Shown here: positions 827 to 33,664 of the stretch, one piece after another
How the letters are laid out: each line of letters begins with the position of its first letter
Numbering within the stretch: position 1 is the first letter of the stretch
DNA from: Polaromonas sp.
Lineage (GTDB): Bacteria; Pseudomonadota; Gammaproteobacteria; Burkholderiales; Burkholderiaceae_C
DNA: 42,936 nt
Direction: 5' to 3'
Assembly: GCA_025352405.1 (NCBI GenBank)
Contig: JANXTM010000267.1
Location: 1-42,936, forward strand
Notes under the pieces: generated by a model
Told to the model about the DNA's origin: nothing
Seen by the model: the letters and a program-made list of their open reading frames with translations, nothing else
Database searches by the model: none
Position numbers and translations under genes: made by a program

Positions 827-834
827 GGTGGCGT

Positions 835-925
835 GGCCCCCACGGTTGCTCACTGCGTGTAGCGCCCTGCTCCCCAAGGGGGCCGCTGCGCCTGCGGCCT
901 GGCAAAGCCAGTTCCGCGGCCCCTG
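835..925 (-). repeat. Dispersed 91-bp element, copy A (intergenic)
   Basis: On the minus strand this runs from CAGGGGCCGCGG to CCGTGGGGGCC and matches 83 of 91 bases of the copy at 5924–6014 by hand alignment, with no gaps. It contains a small hairpin with stem CTGGC/GCCAG and a second G/C-rich inverted segment (GGCCCCC…GGGG). It fills most of the ugpA–ugpE gap, so it could form structure in the ugp messenger. It encodes nothing recognisable here. Confidence 0.8.
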
Positions 926-3496: not shown

Positions 3497-6400
3497 ATGA
3501 ACGCCCCTACTACCCTCCAAGAGTTGAATGTTTTTGCCGGTGAGGCAAAGCATGACGAAGCCCGTATTCGCGAAATTCCCTACAACTACACCTCATTTTC
3601 TGACCGGGAGGTCGTCATCCGGTTGCTGGGCGCGCGTGCCTGGGGCCTGCTTAACCAGCTCCGGGGCGAGCGCCGCACTGGCCGGTCTGCCCGCATGCTC
3701 TACGAGGTGCTGGGTGATGTCTGGGTGGTGCAACGCAACCCGTATCTGCAAGACGACATGCTGGACAATCCAAAACGCCGCAAGCTGCTGGTCGAGGCCC
3801 TGCAGCACCGGCTTGGCGAGGTCGAAAAACGCCGTACCCCGGACGCCGATTCCAAGCGCGACACAATTGTCGGCGAACTGCTTGAAGCTGCACGGGGCGC
3901 GGTCAGCCGATTCGCCATCTCGTTTGAAGAAATCTACGACCTGCGCCGTCTGGCCAGCCGCCGCTTGAGCAAGCTGACTCAAAAGGACAACATCAAGTTT
4001 GATGGTCTGTCGCGCGTGTCGCATGTGACGGATGCGACCGACTGGCGCGTCGAATACCCGTTTGTGGTGCTAACGCCCGACACCGAGGTCGAAATGGCCG
4101 GGCTAGTTAGAGGCTGTATTGATCTGGGGCTCACGATTGTGCCGCGTGGCGGCGGTACGGGTTACACCGGCGGCGCGATTCCCCTGACCTGGAAATCTGC
4201 GGTGATCAACACCGAAAAGCTTGAAGCCATGACCGAGGTGGAAATGCGCGTCTTGCCAGGCTTGAGCCAGCCTGTGGCGACGGTGTGGACCGAAGCCGGT
4301 GTTGTCACGCAGCGCGTGGCCGATGCGGCGGAGCGCGGCGGTTTTGTGTTTGCTGTGGACCCGACCTCGGCAGAAGCTTCTTGCATCGGCGGCAATATCG
4401 CCATGAATGCCGGTGGCAAAAAGGCCGTGTTATGGGGCACAGCGCTGGACAACCTGGCCTCCTGGCGCATGGTGACGCCCGATTCTCAGTGGCTTGAAGT
4501 CACGCGTCTGAACCACAACCTCGGCAAGATTCACGATACGGCGCTGGCCAGCTTTGAGCTGAACTATTTTGAAGCTGACGGCAAAACCCCGGTGCGCACC
4601 GAACGGCTCGACATTCCCGGCAAGAGCTTTCGCAAGGAAGGCCTGGGCAAGGACGTCACAGACAAGTTCTTGAGTGGTCTGCCGGGCATTCAAAAAGAGG
4701 GCTGTGACGGCCTGATCACCAGTGCCCGCTGGATTGTGCACCGCATGCCGGTACATACGCGCACGGTGTGCATGGAGTTTTTTGGCAATGCCAAAGACGC
4801 GGTGCCCAGCATTGTCGAGATCAAGGACTTCATGTTTGCCGAGCAAAAGCGCAGCGAGGCTGCTGGCTCGCCGGTGCTGCTGGCGGGGCTTGAACACCTG
4901 GACGACCGCTACCTGCGGGCGGTCGGATACGCCACCAAATCGAAACGCGGCGGTCTGCCCAAAATGGTCTTGATTGGCGACATTGCCGGTGATGACGCCG
5001 ATGCCGTGGCCCGAGCCACCAGCGAAGTCGTGCGCATTGCCAACTCACGCAGCGGCGAAGGCTTTATTGCCATTAGCCCCGAAGCGCGCAAAAAGTTCTG
5101 GCTGGACCGCAAAAAAACCGCCGCCATCTCGCGCCACACCAACGCCTTCAAGATCAACGAAGACGTGGTGATCCCGCTGCCACGCATGGCCGAGTACACC
5201 GATGGCATCGAGCGCATCAACATTGAGCTGAGCCTGGCCAACAAGATCAAATTGTGCGACGCCCTAAGCGCGTTTCTGCGCAAGGGCAACTTGCCGCTCG
5301 GTAAAGCCGAAGATCTAAGTGATGTGCCGTCGCCGGAAATGTTGGAAGAACGGGTATCGCAAGCCCTTGGCCTGGTGGATGAGGTACGTACATTGTGGGC
5401 CGGCTGGCTTGATGGCGTTGAAACGCTTTTTCCTGCGCTGCAGGACCACAGCCTGCGGGCCAGCTGGAAAACGCAGCTGCGTGCGCCGCTGGCGGCGATC
5501 TTCACCGGTGGTGCTTTTTTGCCGGTGCTGGACGAATGCACGGCCATTCACAAACGCGTGCTCAAGGGCCGGGTCTGGGCCGCCTTGCACATGCATGCCG
5601 GTGACGGCAATGTGCACACCAACCTGCCCGTTAACAGCGACAACTACGAGATGCTGCAAACCGCCCGCCATGCGGTCGAGCGCATCATGGTGCTGGCGCG
5701 TTCGCTGGACGGTGTGATTTCTGGCGAGCATGGCATTGGCATCACCAAGCTGGAGTTTTTGACCGATGCCGAGTTGCAGCCCTTTGCGGACTACAAAGCC
5801 CGGGTTGATCCGGAAGGGCGTTTCAACAAAGGCAAGCTGCTACGAAATAAAGAGCACGTAGCCCCCGTAAACGTTGCCGCAGAGGCCGAAAAAGCTTCTA
5901 TTTTTGACGCATCTCCCGCCAAGCAGGGGCCGCGGGACTGGCTTCGCCAGACCGCAGGCGCAGCGCCCCCCCTGGGGAGCAGGGAGCTACACGAAGTGAG
6001 CGACCGTGGGGGCCTTATTTATGCTGACCTGACCAACGCCTACACGCCCAGCTTCGGGCTGATGGGCCACGAGTCGCTGATCATGCAGCAGTCTGACATT
6101 GGCGCGATTGCCGACAGCGTGAAAGACTGCCTGCGCTGCGGCAAGTGCAAGCCGGTGTGCGCCACCCATGTGCCGCGCGCCAACCTGCTGTACAGCCCGC
6201 GTAACAAGATTCTGGCCACCTCGCTGCTGGTCGAAGCCTTTTTGTACGAAGAGCAAACCCGGCGCGGCGTCAGCATCAAACACTGGGAAGAGTTTGAAGA
6301 CGTGGCTGACCACTGCACGGTTTGCCACAAATGCCTGAGCCCGTGCCCGGTGGACATTGACTTCGGCGATGTGTCGATGAACATGCGCAACCTGCTGCGC

Positions 6401-7546
6401 AAGATGGGTAAAAAGAGCTTTCGGCCGGCAGCGGAGTTTCAGTCCTGGTTTATTGGCACCGCCAACCCCCGCGCGATTCGCATGGCGCACACCTTGACGG
6501 GCATCAGCTTCAAGGCGCAGCGCCTGGCCAATGACCTGATGAAGGTGCTGACCCGCAAGCAGACCAAGGCGCCACCCGCCACAGTGGGCACAGCACCGGT
6601 CAAGCAGCAGGTGATTCATTTCATCAACAAAAAAATGCCCGGTAATTTGCCTAAAAAGACGGCACGCGCACTGCTTGATATCGAAGACAAAGATTACCTG
6701 CCGATCATCCGTAACCCGAAAACCACAACAGCCGAAACTGAAGCCGTGTTTTATTTCCCTGGCTGTGGTTCCGAGCGGCTGTTCAGCCAGGTCGGGCTGG
6801 CGACCCAGGCCATGCTGTGGCACGCGGGCGTGCAGACGGTGTTGCCGCCGGGTTATTTGTGCTGCGGCTACCCGCAAAAAGGCAGTGGTCAGTTTGACAA
6901 GGCCGACAAGATCATTACCGACAACCGGGTGCTGTTTCACCGCGTTGCCAATACCCTGAACTACATGGACATCAAAACCGTGGTGGTTAGCTGCGGCACC
7001 TGTTATGACCAGCTGCAAAGCTACGAGTTTGACAAAATTTTCCCCGGTAGCCGTATCATTGACATCCACGAGTACTTGCTTGAAAAAGGCATCACGCTCG
7101 CAGCGGCGGGCGGCGGTGGGGCTTATCTGTACCACGACCCTTGCCACAGCCCCATGAAGCTGCAGGCGCCAATGAAAACCGTGCAGGCGCTGGTTGGCGA
7201 CAAGGTGCTGGAAAGCAAGCGCTGCTGCGGTGAAAGCGGCGGCCTGGCGACGTCACGACCCGACATTTCGACGCAAATCCGCTTTCGCAAAGAAGAGGAA
7301 ATTCGTCTCGGCGAAGCCGCCTTGCGCGATGCAGGCAGCGTGACAGCGCAGGAAGATATTAAAATCCTGACCTCTTGCCCGAGCTGCCTGATGGGTTTGA
7401 ACCGCTACCAGGACGACCTGAAAACCGGCTTGCTGGAGGCCGACTACATCGTCGTCGAAATGGCCAGCCAGATTCTGGGCAAGGACTGGCTGCCAGACTA
7501 TGTCGCTGCTGCCAACCACGGCGGCATTGAGCGGGTTTTGGTCTGA
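3497..7546 (+). CDS. Fused FAD-linked oxidase / iron-sulfur oxidoreductase (DUF3683; GlcD–GlcF-like)
   Basis: A 1349-residue multidomain redox enzyme. In order: an N-terminal DUF3683-type region (about 1–185); a FAD-binding domain of the vanillyl-alcohol-oxidase type (about 190–330, with [11 protein letters not shown]); a FAD-oxidase C-terminal region (about 560–790, with HMHAGDGN near 698 and GEHGIG near 743); two 4Fe-4S motifs, [11 protein letters not shown] from 878 and [11 protein letters not shown] from 940; and two cysteine-rich CCG domains (CCG at 1122 and 1243), as in GlcF and heterodisulfide reductase. The layout implies oxidation of a 2-hydroxyacid (D-lactate, glycolate or D-2-hydroxyglutarate type) with electrons passed through Fe-S clusters, but the substrate is unknown. 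The linker at about residues 781–840 is coded by two dispersed repeats (5837–5876 and 5924–6014). The start ATG at 3497 has no obvious ribosome binding site. Confidence 0.88.
5837..5876 (+). repeat. Short AT-rich dispersed element, in-frame copy in oxidoreductase linker
   Basis: Reads GCTGCTACGAAATAAAGAGC, then the core TAGCCCCCGTA (5859–5869) and AACGTTGC. The same core with flanking GCTA/AATA-type bases occurs on the minus strand at 18549–18593 and 21913–21979. It codes for about residues 781–794 of the oxidoreductase, immediately after the FAD-oxidase C-terminal region. Confidence 0.55.
5924..6014 (+). repeat. Dispersed 91-bp element, copy B (inside a coding region)
   Basis: Matches the intergenic copy at 835–925 in 83 of 91 positions and has the same CTGGC/GCCAG hairpin. 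It is read through in frame as about residues 810–840 (…[18 protein letters not shown]…) of the oxidoreductase, between the FAD-oxidase domain and the first Fe-S motif. The peptide is rich in G, A, P and R and looks like linker, not a folded domain. Confidence 0.8.
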
Positions 7547-14985: not shown

Positions 14986-15152
14986 GTGGCCCCCACGGTC
15001 GCTCGCTTCGCGTAGCGTCCTGTACGTGCCAACGCAAGATGCGCAGGCCCTTCGTGCTGTCCAAACCCGCGCAGGCGGGTTTGCAGCCGCAGCGCTCGGT
15101 CCCGAGGGGGCTGCTGCGCCGGCGGGCTGGAGAAGCCAGACCCACGGTCCCC
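14986..15152 (-). repeat. Split copy of the 91-bp dispersed element (copy C) after aspS
   Basis: The first part (14986–15022, GTGGCCCCCACGGTCGCTCG…) matches one end of the 91-bp element in the orientation of copy A. The other end reappears at about 15094–15147 (CCGAGGGGG…GCGCC…CTGG-AGAA-GCCAG). Between them lie about 70 unrelated bases containing a perfect 8-bp hairpin (AAACCCGC/GCGGGTTT, 15063–15082). This stretch fills most of the 222-bp aspS–nudB gap. Confidence 0.6.
15063..15082 (+). terminator. Possible aspS terminator hairpin
   Basis: A perfect 8-bp stem, AAACCCGC–GCAG–GCGGGTTT, lies 80 bases past the aspS stop. There is no proper T run after it, so intrinsic termination is uncertain. 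It sits inside the split repeat. Confidence 0.35.
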
Positions 15153-15205
15153 GCTGGGTCGGAGATGCCCCACACTCTACTGCCGCCGGGTAGCAGGAGC
15201 GGGGG

Positions 15206-32224: not shown

Positions 32225-33664
32225 TCAATTTTCTTTTTTCTCGTTCTTGTTTTCGACAACCGCCGTTTTGCTGACGATCACCGGACGACCCTTGAGCTGG
32301 TTGATCGCCTGCATGAGCGGGAAGTCCTTGTCGCTGCCCAATTCTGGCGGGCGGCGTTGTTCGGGTGTTTTCCTGGCGTCTTCTTCAAGCTTTTTGAGCG
32401 CTTCATCACGTGCTTTTTCGCGGTTGGCGTCTTTCACTTCGGCGCCCTGACCGCTGCTCAGGTGTTTTTCAAGATCAGCTTCGCGCGTGCGCAGGGCTGC
32501 AAATGGGCTGCCTTCGAGGGTCTCGTCCACCATCACATCGGGAATGATGCCCCTGGCTTGAATAGACTTGCCGCTGGGCGTGTAGTAGCGCGCGGTGGTG
32601 AGCTTGATGCCGGTGTCGGGGCCCAGTGGCCGCACGGTCTGGACCGAACCTTTGCCAAAGGTCTGGTTACCCATGATGATGGCGCGTTTGTGGTCTTGCA
32701 AAGCGCCCGCCACGATCTCGCTGGCTGATGCAGAGCCTTCATTGACAAGCACCACCAATGGCACGGTTTTAAGGGCTGCAGGCAATCTCTTAAGTGGGTC
32801 ATTACCGCTGCGACGCAGGTAAAACTCTGGTGATGCCTTGTAGACAAACTTGCTTTCTGCGAGTTGTCCGTTGGTCGACACCACGGTCACGTTTTCAGGC
32901 AGAAAAGCTGCCGAAATAGCCACGGCTGCGTCGAGCAAGCCGCCTGGGTCATTGCGCAAATCAAGTACCAGGCCCTTGAGATTGGGCTCCTGCTTGTAGA
33001 TGGCTTCAAGCTTGGTGGCAAAGTCGTCAACGGTGCGTTCCTGGAACTGGCTCAGGCGAATCCAGGCATAACCTGGCTCAACCACCCTGCTCCGAACCGA
33101 TTGCGTGCGGATTTCCTCGCGCACGATGGTCACCGGGAAAGTGCGGCTTTCGTCCTTGCGCAAGATCATCAGGACAACCTTGCTCTTGGGCTCGCCACGC
33201 ATTTTTTTCACGGCGTCGTTAAGCGACAGGCCCTTGACCACGGTGTCATCGATTTTGGTAATCAGGTCATTGGGTTTAAGGCCCGCACGGTCAGCTGGCG
33301 ACCCCTCGATCGGGGATACAACCTTGACCAGGCCGTCCTCCTGGGTAATTTCTATGCCGACACCAACAAAGCGTCCGCTGGTGCCTTCGCGAAATTCCTT
33401 AAATGATTTTTTGTCAAAGTACACCGAGTGGGGGTCCAGGCTGGAGACCATGCCACCAATCGCATCGGAGATGAGTTTTTTCTCATCAACGGGCTCAACA
33501 TAGTCAGTTTTGACCATGCCGAACACTGCGGACAATTGCTGCAGCTCCTCAAGCGGCAAGGGACTGAGGCCACCCCGCGCGACCGCTTGCAGTTGCACGG
33601 TAGTGAGGGCACCTGCCACGGCACCAATTGAAATCCAGCCTGCGATCTTGAGCTTTTGACCCAT
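32225..33664 (-). CDS. Carboxyl-terminal processing protease CtpA (peptidase S41)
   Basis: A periplasmic serine protease of 479 residues with an N-terminal signal or anchor (about 6–28). A PDZ domain (about 98–175, with GVGIEITQEDGLVKVVSPIE) precedes the S41 catalytic domain. The catalytic dyad is Ser313 in SASAS and Lys338 in TFGKGSVQTV, spaced 25 residues as in E. coli Prc. The C terminus is a charged, Lys/Glu-rich tail. Such proteases trim periplasmic and lipid-anchored proteins, often peptidoglycan hydrolases. It forms a group with moeB; gpmA lies 196 bp upstream on the same strand. Confidence 0.92.
   Translation of the reverse strand: MGQKLKIAGWISIGAVAGALTTVQLQAVARGGLSPLPLEELQQLSAVFGMVKTDYVEPVDEKKLISDAIGGMVSSLDPHSVYFDKKSFKEFREGTSGRFVGVGIEITQEDGLVKVVSPIEGSPADRAGLKPNDLITKIDDTVVKGLSLNDAVKKMRGEPKSKVVLMILRKDESRTFPVTIVREEIRTQSVRSRVVEPGYAWIRLSQFQERTVDDFATKLEAIYKQEPNLKGLVLDLRNDPGGLLDAAVAISAAFLPENVTVVSTNGQLAESKFVYKASPEFYLRRSGNDPLKRLPAALKTVPLVVLVNEGSASASEIVAGALQDHKRAIIMGNQTFGKGSVQTVRPLGPDTGIKLTTARYYTPSGKSIQARGIIPDVMVDETLEGSPFAALRTREADLEKHLSSGQGAEVKDANREKARDEALKKLEEDARKTPEQRRPPELGSDKDFPLMQAINQLKGRPVIVSKTAVVENKNEKKEN

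Follow-up and report, generated by a model that had tools for sequence, protein, structure and literature searches.

In-frame copies of a dispersed GC-rich repeat in the linker of a fused oxidoreductase and in other genes of Polaromonas

In the free-living genus Polaromonas, a short GC-rich repeat dispersed through the genome (family A) also lies in frame within the interdomain linker of a fused oxidoreductase gene and within several unrelated enzyme genes. Our preferred explanation, to which we assign a probability of about 0.85, is that family A is a selfish short repeat that persists in genes where linkers or loops tolerate some 30 extra residues, and that it has lengthened the linker of the DUF3683 fusion protein in this way. 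The repeat family, its in-frame genic copies, their scattered distribution among relatives and a 3' remnant in a sister gene are described below as they appear in assembled genomes. The DNA analysed (the window, 42,936 nt) is the whole of contig JANXTM010000267.1 of a draft Polaromonas sp. assembly (GCA_025352405.1; 346 contigs, 3.78 Mb).

The host gene (3497-7546, plus strand; from the ORF list, Pfam and NCBIfam) encodes a 1349-aa fusion of DUF3683, FAD-oxidase, Fe-S (Fer4_8 and CCG) and DUF3400 parts. It contains the short form of family A at 5920-6014 (plus strand), recognized by its genome matches, by the inverted pair that it forms with 835-929 and by a profile made from 150 copies (161 minus 11 in genes). 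A sequence-only reading of the window had noted that 5924-6014 (+) agrees with 835-925 (-) in 83 of 91 bases (91%), and the genome search returned this pair at E 5.1e-31; the match extends to 95 nt at 91% identity (5920-6014 with 835-929), with the conserved core beginning at CAAG, position 5920. With up to three mismatches allowed, the 30-mer at the 3' end is found at two places in the window, and none of 100 shuffles gave any match. The copy corresponds to about residues 810-840, following FAD-oxidase_C (682-781) and preceding Fer4_8 (875-954), so that Pfam domains on both sides place it where the FAD-oxidase part of a GlcD-/GlcF-like fusion joins the Fe-S part; the ORF crosses it with neither frameshift nor stop, both as that reading had described. 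The 30-residue insert peptide, with 11 Gly, Ala or Pro residues and four Arg, deserves the earlier label of Gly/Ala/Pro-rich to a moderate degree and no more. It is presumably translated and flexible.

At least 46 stretches of the window's genome match family A at E <= 0.01 (40 of 72 candidates scored); in this count the long copies on contigs C1, C99 and C153 are two pieces each, and the long copy in the window is excluded. These matches dispel the concern that the genome might hold two chance copies alone and, together with the in-frame position, bear out the proposal of a dispersed repeat that is now part of an interdomain linker. Both other copies in the window are intergenic and on the minus strand. 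The one at 835-929, found by genome search and as the inverted partner of the linker copy, has its 3' end a few bases ahead of a minus-strand ATG (by eye), and this G-rich end (827-845, minus strand) could be a ribosome-binding site for that gene. The third window copy, at about 14988-15153, is of the long form seen in some members of the family, with about 80 extra bases mid-element; its neighbours are a NUDIX-like gene and the end of an AspS-like gene (names assigned by eye), and this long form recurs at several other places in the genome.

A 94-nt core is present in 101 of 149 family A copies, outside which there are merely weak T- or A/T-rich preferences; mean GC over 150 copies is 76.6%. 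Several genomes have tandem copies about 84-105 bp apart. Family A has matches (E <= 1e-5) in 31 of the 36 other Polaromonas genomes searched and, at E <= 1e-10, in 91 of 299 genomes of the same taxonomic family; 24 genomes of the order's other families gave none, and no plasmid matched. Polaromonas G032, whose DUF3683 gene sequence is common to Polaromonas sp. JS666, has at least 16 matches (14 of 109 candidates scored). In other genera, many of the matches listed span positions 44-94 or 27-94 alone, i.e. the 3' half. Most of 20 hand-picked loci read in these genera join the 3' half to a different 5' hairpin (by eye), which suggests a modular repeat superfamily.

Three helices, picked by eye after the alignment had been viewed, have standard pairs in 93.7% of cells among 41 diverse copies taken as non-genic. 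Changes on both sides of a pair occurred in 32 cells, whereas shuffles averaged 8.3 such cells and slid versions gave 2-20. This covariation comes from helices 2 and 3, with no contribution from helix 1. In the consensus fold that RNAalifold itself proposed, covariation was slight, both sides having changed in 1 of 17 pairs, and the RNA stability of a single copy was not unusual (z -0.74). No terminal inverted repeats were found in family A, 888 of 1000 shuffles being equally good. Target duplications of at least 6 nt flank 8 of 108 copies, a weak excess over 200 permutations (mean 2.5, maximum 7). As a candidate RAYT transposase gene, such as the repeat would flank in a REP system, one Y1_Tnp match lies at G000:C1:108-434 near a contig end, 13 kb from the nearest listed A copy there. 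The family is probably mobile now, or was formerly. Of the six frames, 4.19 are open on average in observed copies and 4.21 in simulated ones; open frames thus match composition, and the repeat itself is not shaped for coding. The window gave three Rfam matches, all under their gathering scores, among them Rp_sR47 at 32599-32959 (plus strand; 33.8 bits against a gathering score of 60).

The sequence-only reading was right that repeat DNA had been recruited as a linker, but the linker copy is no singular event: it is one among many in-frame copies. In the window's own genome, at least seven of 41 loci (the long window copy and 40 loci that take in the listed stretches; in-frame copies alone were tallied in genes) have family A in frame inside a Pfam-matched ORF, in both orientations and four strand/frame combinations. 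Besides the DUF3683 fusion, Pfam identifies these as a GT9 gene (PDB support weak, E 8.7e-6), XdhA (PDB 1jro), an APH-like kinase (PDB 3csv), MetX (PDB 2pl5), a FemAB-like gene, and an ORF with FAD_binding_3 before and Oxidored_FMN after the insert, which we take to be a salicylyl-CoA-hydroxylase-like fusion and whose listed PDB matches miss the insert. Alignments to structures place several inserts at interruptions of the matched chain: MetX aligns with 2pl5 up to 241 and resumes at 249, leaving query residues 260-313 unmatched; chain positions 83 and 85 of 1jro border query residues 126-164 of XdhA; and positions 196 and 200 of 3csv border query residues 308-340 of the kinase. AlphaFold modelling of MetX and of the window protein from residue 481 to 1349 gave mean pLDDT values of 47 and 53, too low for the insert to be located or judged.

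Among 100 loci surveyed in ten other Polaromonas genomes, four more were in-frame cases with some Pfam support; fractions from this survey are biased because its loci come from ten genomes and are the copies most like the window's. The four are a GT9 gene of G019 whose insert site is that of the GT9 copy in the window's genome, a MoCF/CinA-like gene of G011 with Pfam matches on both sides, a YheT-like alpha/beta hydrolase of G019 with a Pfam match downstream of the insert alone, and a PriA-like gene of G035, likewise matched downstream alone, with 30 residues visible upstream. Within the YheT-like ORF, a full copy and a partial one follow each other in frame. An acetoacetyl-CoA-synthetase-like ORF (ACAS_N, AMP-binding) from another genus has two tandem in-frame copies of a related repeat that resembles the 3' part of A. 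Thirteen further long ORFs through copies of A or related repeats had no Pfam match (3 of 10, 6 of 10 and 4 of 5) and were not accepted as genes, and at one locus (L143) the copy is apparently upstream of an ADH gene and not within it.

Orthologues of two of these genes differ in whether they carry the repeat. Twelve of 29 Polaromonas MetX rows have a loop matched by the A profile; the repeat is antisense to the gene in every one of them and doubled in tandem in one. Of the other rows, 12 have short loops and five (L340-L344) have long loops that we rejected as carriers, there being no significant A match. The short loop of one row (L350) contains a peptide that is a possible A remnant. In two rows (L336 and L337), the second half of the insert peptide reads as if the frame shifts within the element, with the net frame kept (by eye), an alteration that favours a role as spacer over a conserved peptide. 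GT9 has family A in five of 15 genomes, in one of them the 3' half alone. All insert regions extracted from MetX, GT9 and the DUF3683 linker are multiples of three, and out-of-frame insertions have presumably been weeded out.

Fused homologues of the DUF3683 protein are widespread. In other families of the order, 16 of 24 genomes gave matches at E <= 1e-50, and in 109 homologue rows other than the window's (some genomes twice) the linker is 1-46 aa long and contains no full A copy. The suggestion that the element helped to keep GlcD-like and GlcF-like parts together is thus unsupported, since fusion without A is so common. Over all homologues examined, the linker ranges from 1 to 63 aa. As to whether distant homologues have the insert peptide at the same place, none of 80 loci from named genomes had it. 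Within Polaromonas, 82 of 87 genomes match the region (some partly), and the alignment runs through the linker in five of them, among these the window's genome; family A is there at full length in four genomes and as its 3' half in G377, with profile E-values down to 6e-26. Strand, frame and 3' junction are identical in the five linker copies.

A gene tree of 53 rows with the linker excluded requires at least five changes of the A label; it is a sample of loci from 30 of the 87 genus genomes, with six rows and five duplicates left out. An AU test on a quick tree rejected a single clade of the five carriers and G011 (p 0.00037), for a group defined by the insert after a FastTree had been viewed. 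The G011 gene is sister to that of the window's species with full SH-aLRT support, and its linker keeps 15 nt of the 3' end of A, a length that none of 300 simulated linkers reached (highest 13). Each of the four full-length linker copies resembles dispersed copies (94-97% identity) more closely than it does the other three (87-90%). For the half copy of G377, identity is 100% with dispersed copies and 91-98% with the other linker copies over 46-49 nt. The most likely history of the linker, as these alignments and trees suggest it, is that A inserted repeatedly and was later deleted at least once.

Two other repeats have apparently entered the same linker. Of the 93 homologue gene rows that could be cut out, 24 (two of them from one genome) have a linker match at E <= 0.005 to a family B profile built from 30 dispersed copies; the best match reaches 6e-16. 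Elsewhere in 360 kb of these rows, no sense-strand match fell below E 0.5, and the best antisense match (0.09) lay over the linker itself. The window's own row misses the threshold; its 5838-5899 (plus strand), the left part of the linker, is probably an older, eroded family B copy, because it aligns as DNA to the orthologous segment of relatives that do match. Family B is dispersed in nine of ten genomes searched (Rhodoferax, Acidovorax, Giesbergeria and Polaromonas), one Rhodoferax MAG being without it. Family C, a palindromic repeat, forms the linker of a Rubrivivax MAG, which has 65 matching pieces, some of them the same palindrome on both strands; the linker of Polaromonas G396 is also family C, sharing 83% identity across 90 nt with a copy dispersed in Rubrivivax. 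A Ramlibacter linker tried as a further repeat matched only itself in its own genome, and the corresponding 43-aa linker of another Polaromonas MAG matches neither A nor B.

We propose that family A, with its GC-rich 94-bp core and conserved hairpins, has multiplied across Polaromonas genomes and sometimes enters genes, where the copies that are seen keep the frame, are free of stops and lie in a linker or loop. In the DUF3683 gene, A would extend the pre-existing, length-variable linker of a widespread fused oxidoreductase by a spacer of about 30 residues. This linker most likely took A several times in separate Polaromonas lineages; B would have arrived earlier, and palindromic C in two other lineages. 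The insert is probably tolerated rather than useful. Plain random insertion with tolerance does not predict the orientation, frame and 3' junction shared by all five copies. These shared features could instead stem from a single old insertion of A in an ancestral Polaromonas linker followed by many losses and by gene conversion from dispersed copies. This is the main rival, and it opposes only the "several times" part of our proposal. The remnant in G011 suggests that losses do occur, gene conversion too would make linker copies resemble dispersed ones, and the half copy of G377 is 98% identical to the G390 copy over 49 nt. The scattered carriers, the minimum of five changes and the rejected single clade would nevertheless demand many losses, and in the 15-row tree group that includes G390 all other linkers measure 33 or 54 nt; we regard the old insertion as a serious but doubtful alternative.

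Recurrence might also reflect targeting rather than tolerance, the insertion machinery preferring the site: the five DUF3683 genes agree in 3' junction and orientation, and the 12 MetX rows in orientation. The alignments show no common target motif (by eye), however, and conserved protein beside the junction would equally confine survivors to one place, which makes targeting unlikely in our judgement. That the insert was selected as a useful linker, giving spacing or flexibility between the flavin and Fe-S parts, could explain why three different repeats occur in one linker and why the frame is retained; it fits poorly with a linker of such variable length among homologues, with alignment through the insert in just five of the 82 matching Polaromonas genomes, with the mere remnant in the sister G011 and with the same repeat inside unrelated enzymes, and we think it quite improbable. 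Chance similarity or an assembly artefact might be feared in a draft of so many contigs, yet the same arrangement is found in other assemblies, with the strong profile matches given above, and orthologous insertions refute this explanation almost completely.

Among known systems, the closest by description are the Beta-proteobacterial repeat elements (BREs), which the relevant section of PMC3110155 describes as about 90 bp long with partial forms of 40-60 bp, often in tandem, with most copies in Polaromonas sp. JS666 (29) and others in further Comamonadaceae and in Bordetella, some of them wholly inside coding sequences. Family A resembles these elements in its length, shortened forms and tandem arrangement, and also in its hosts and in having copies inside coding sequences. 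By this likeness in description, family A is probably a BRE subfamily. At 76.6% GC, its copies lie above the 69.0% mean of the Bordetella copies, inside their range of 63.7-78.9%. A search for a LexA pattern, a marker of a published BRE locus, found none beside A copies. The BRE section of PMC3110155 is silent on the frame, gene identity and recurrence of copies in genes.

Repeats that add peptide are described for Rickettsia, where the pertinent part of PMC10969869 presents the RPEs as short repeats in frame in unrelated metabolic genes, and for Wolbachia, where in-frame copies like the Wolbachia palindromic elements (WPE) in addA, addB and priA are given in an excerpt of PMC4224334. Family A also enters unrelated protein genes in frame, and by analogy, drawn from these descriptions, would work like the Rickettsia palindromic elements. 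It differs in that in-frame genic copies are a minority (the seven of 41 own loci, a minimum), in its use of several frames and both orientations, and in that one linker holds three repeats across lineages. The PriA-like gene of G035 recalls the priA copies by description, although Wolbachia is an endosymbiont. MITEs such as the QMITE of Coxiella are likewise short non-autonomous repeats that are sometimes in frame (PMC5896051, in part); most bacterial MITEs, unlike family A, have terminal inverted repeats. It seems unlikely, if conceivable, that A, B and C together are a recurrent source of linkers in Comamonadaceae, with various short repeats entering the same linkers and loops again and again, A always at one junction and in one orientation and frame, so that such repeats or their machinery would seek these positions and generate linker diversity in a free-living bacterium.

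We found no account of in-frame repeats in Polaromonas in the literature searched, and the sections seen of PMC11907789 and PMC4921121 hold nothing on repeats. Within that literature, the recurrent in-frame use of a repeat in Polaromonas and the entry of several repeats into one linker appear to be new. Repeats read as protein are best known from the intracellular Rickettsia and Wolbachia (portions of PMC10969869 and PMC4224334), and a 2024 review, in the corresponding part, calls a similar mechanism in other prokaryotes just "conceivable" (PMC10969869). Family A would add a free-living bacterium in which proteins evolve by repeats in the manner of Rickettsia and Wolbachia. Its orthologous sites are polymorphic (with the repeat, without it, in tandem or apparently partly deleted), so that gain, loss and tolerance become directly testable in assayable enzymes such as MetX.
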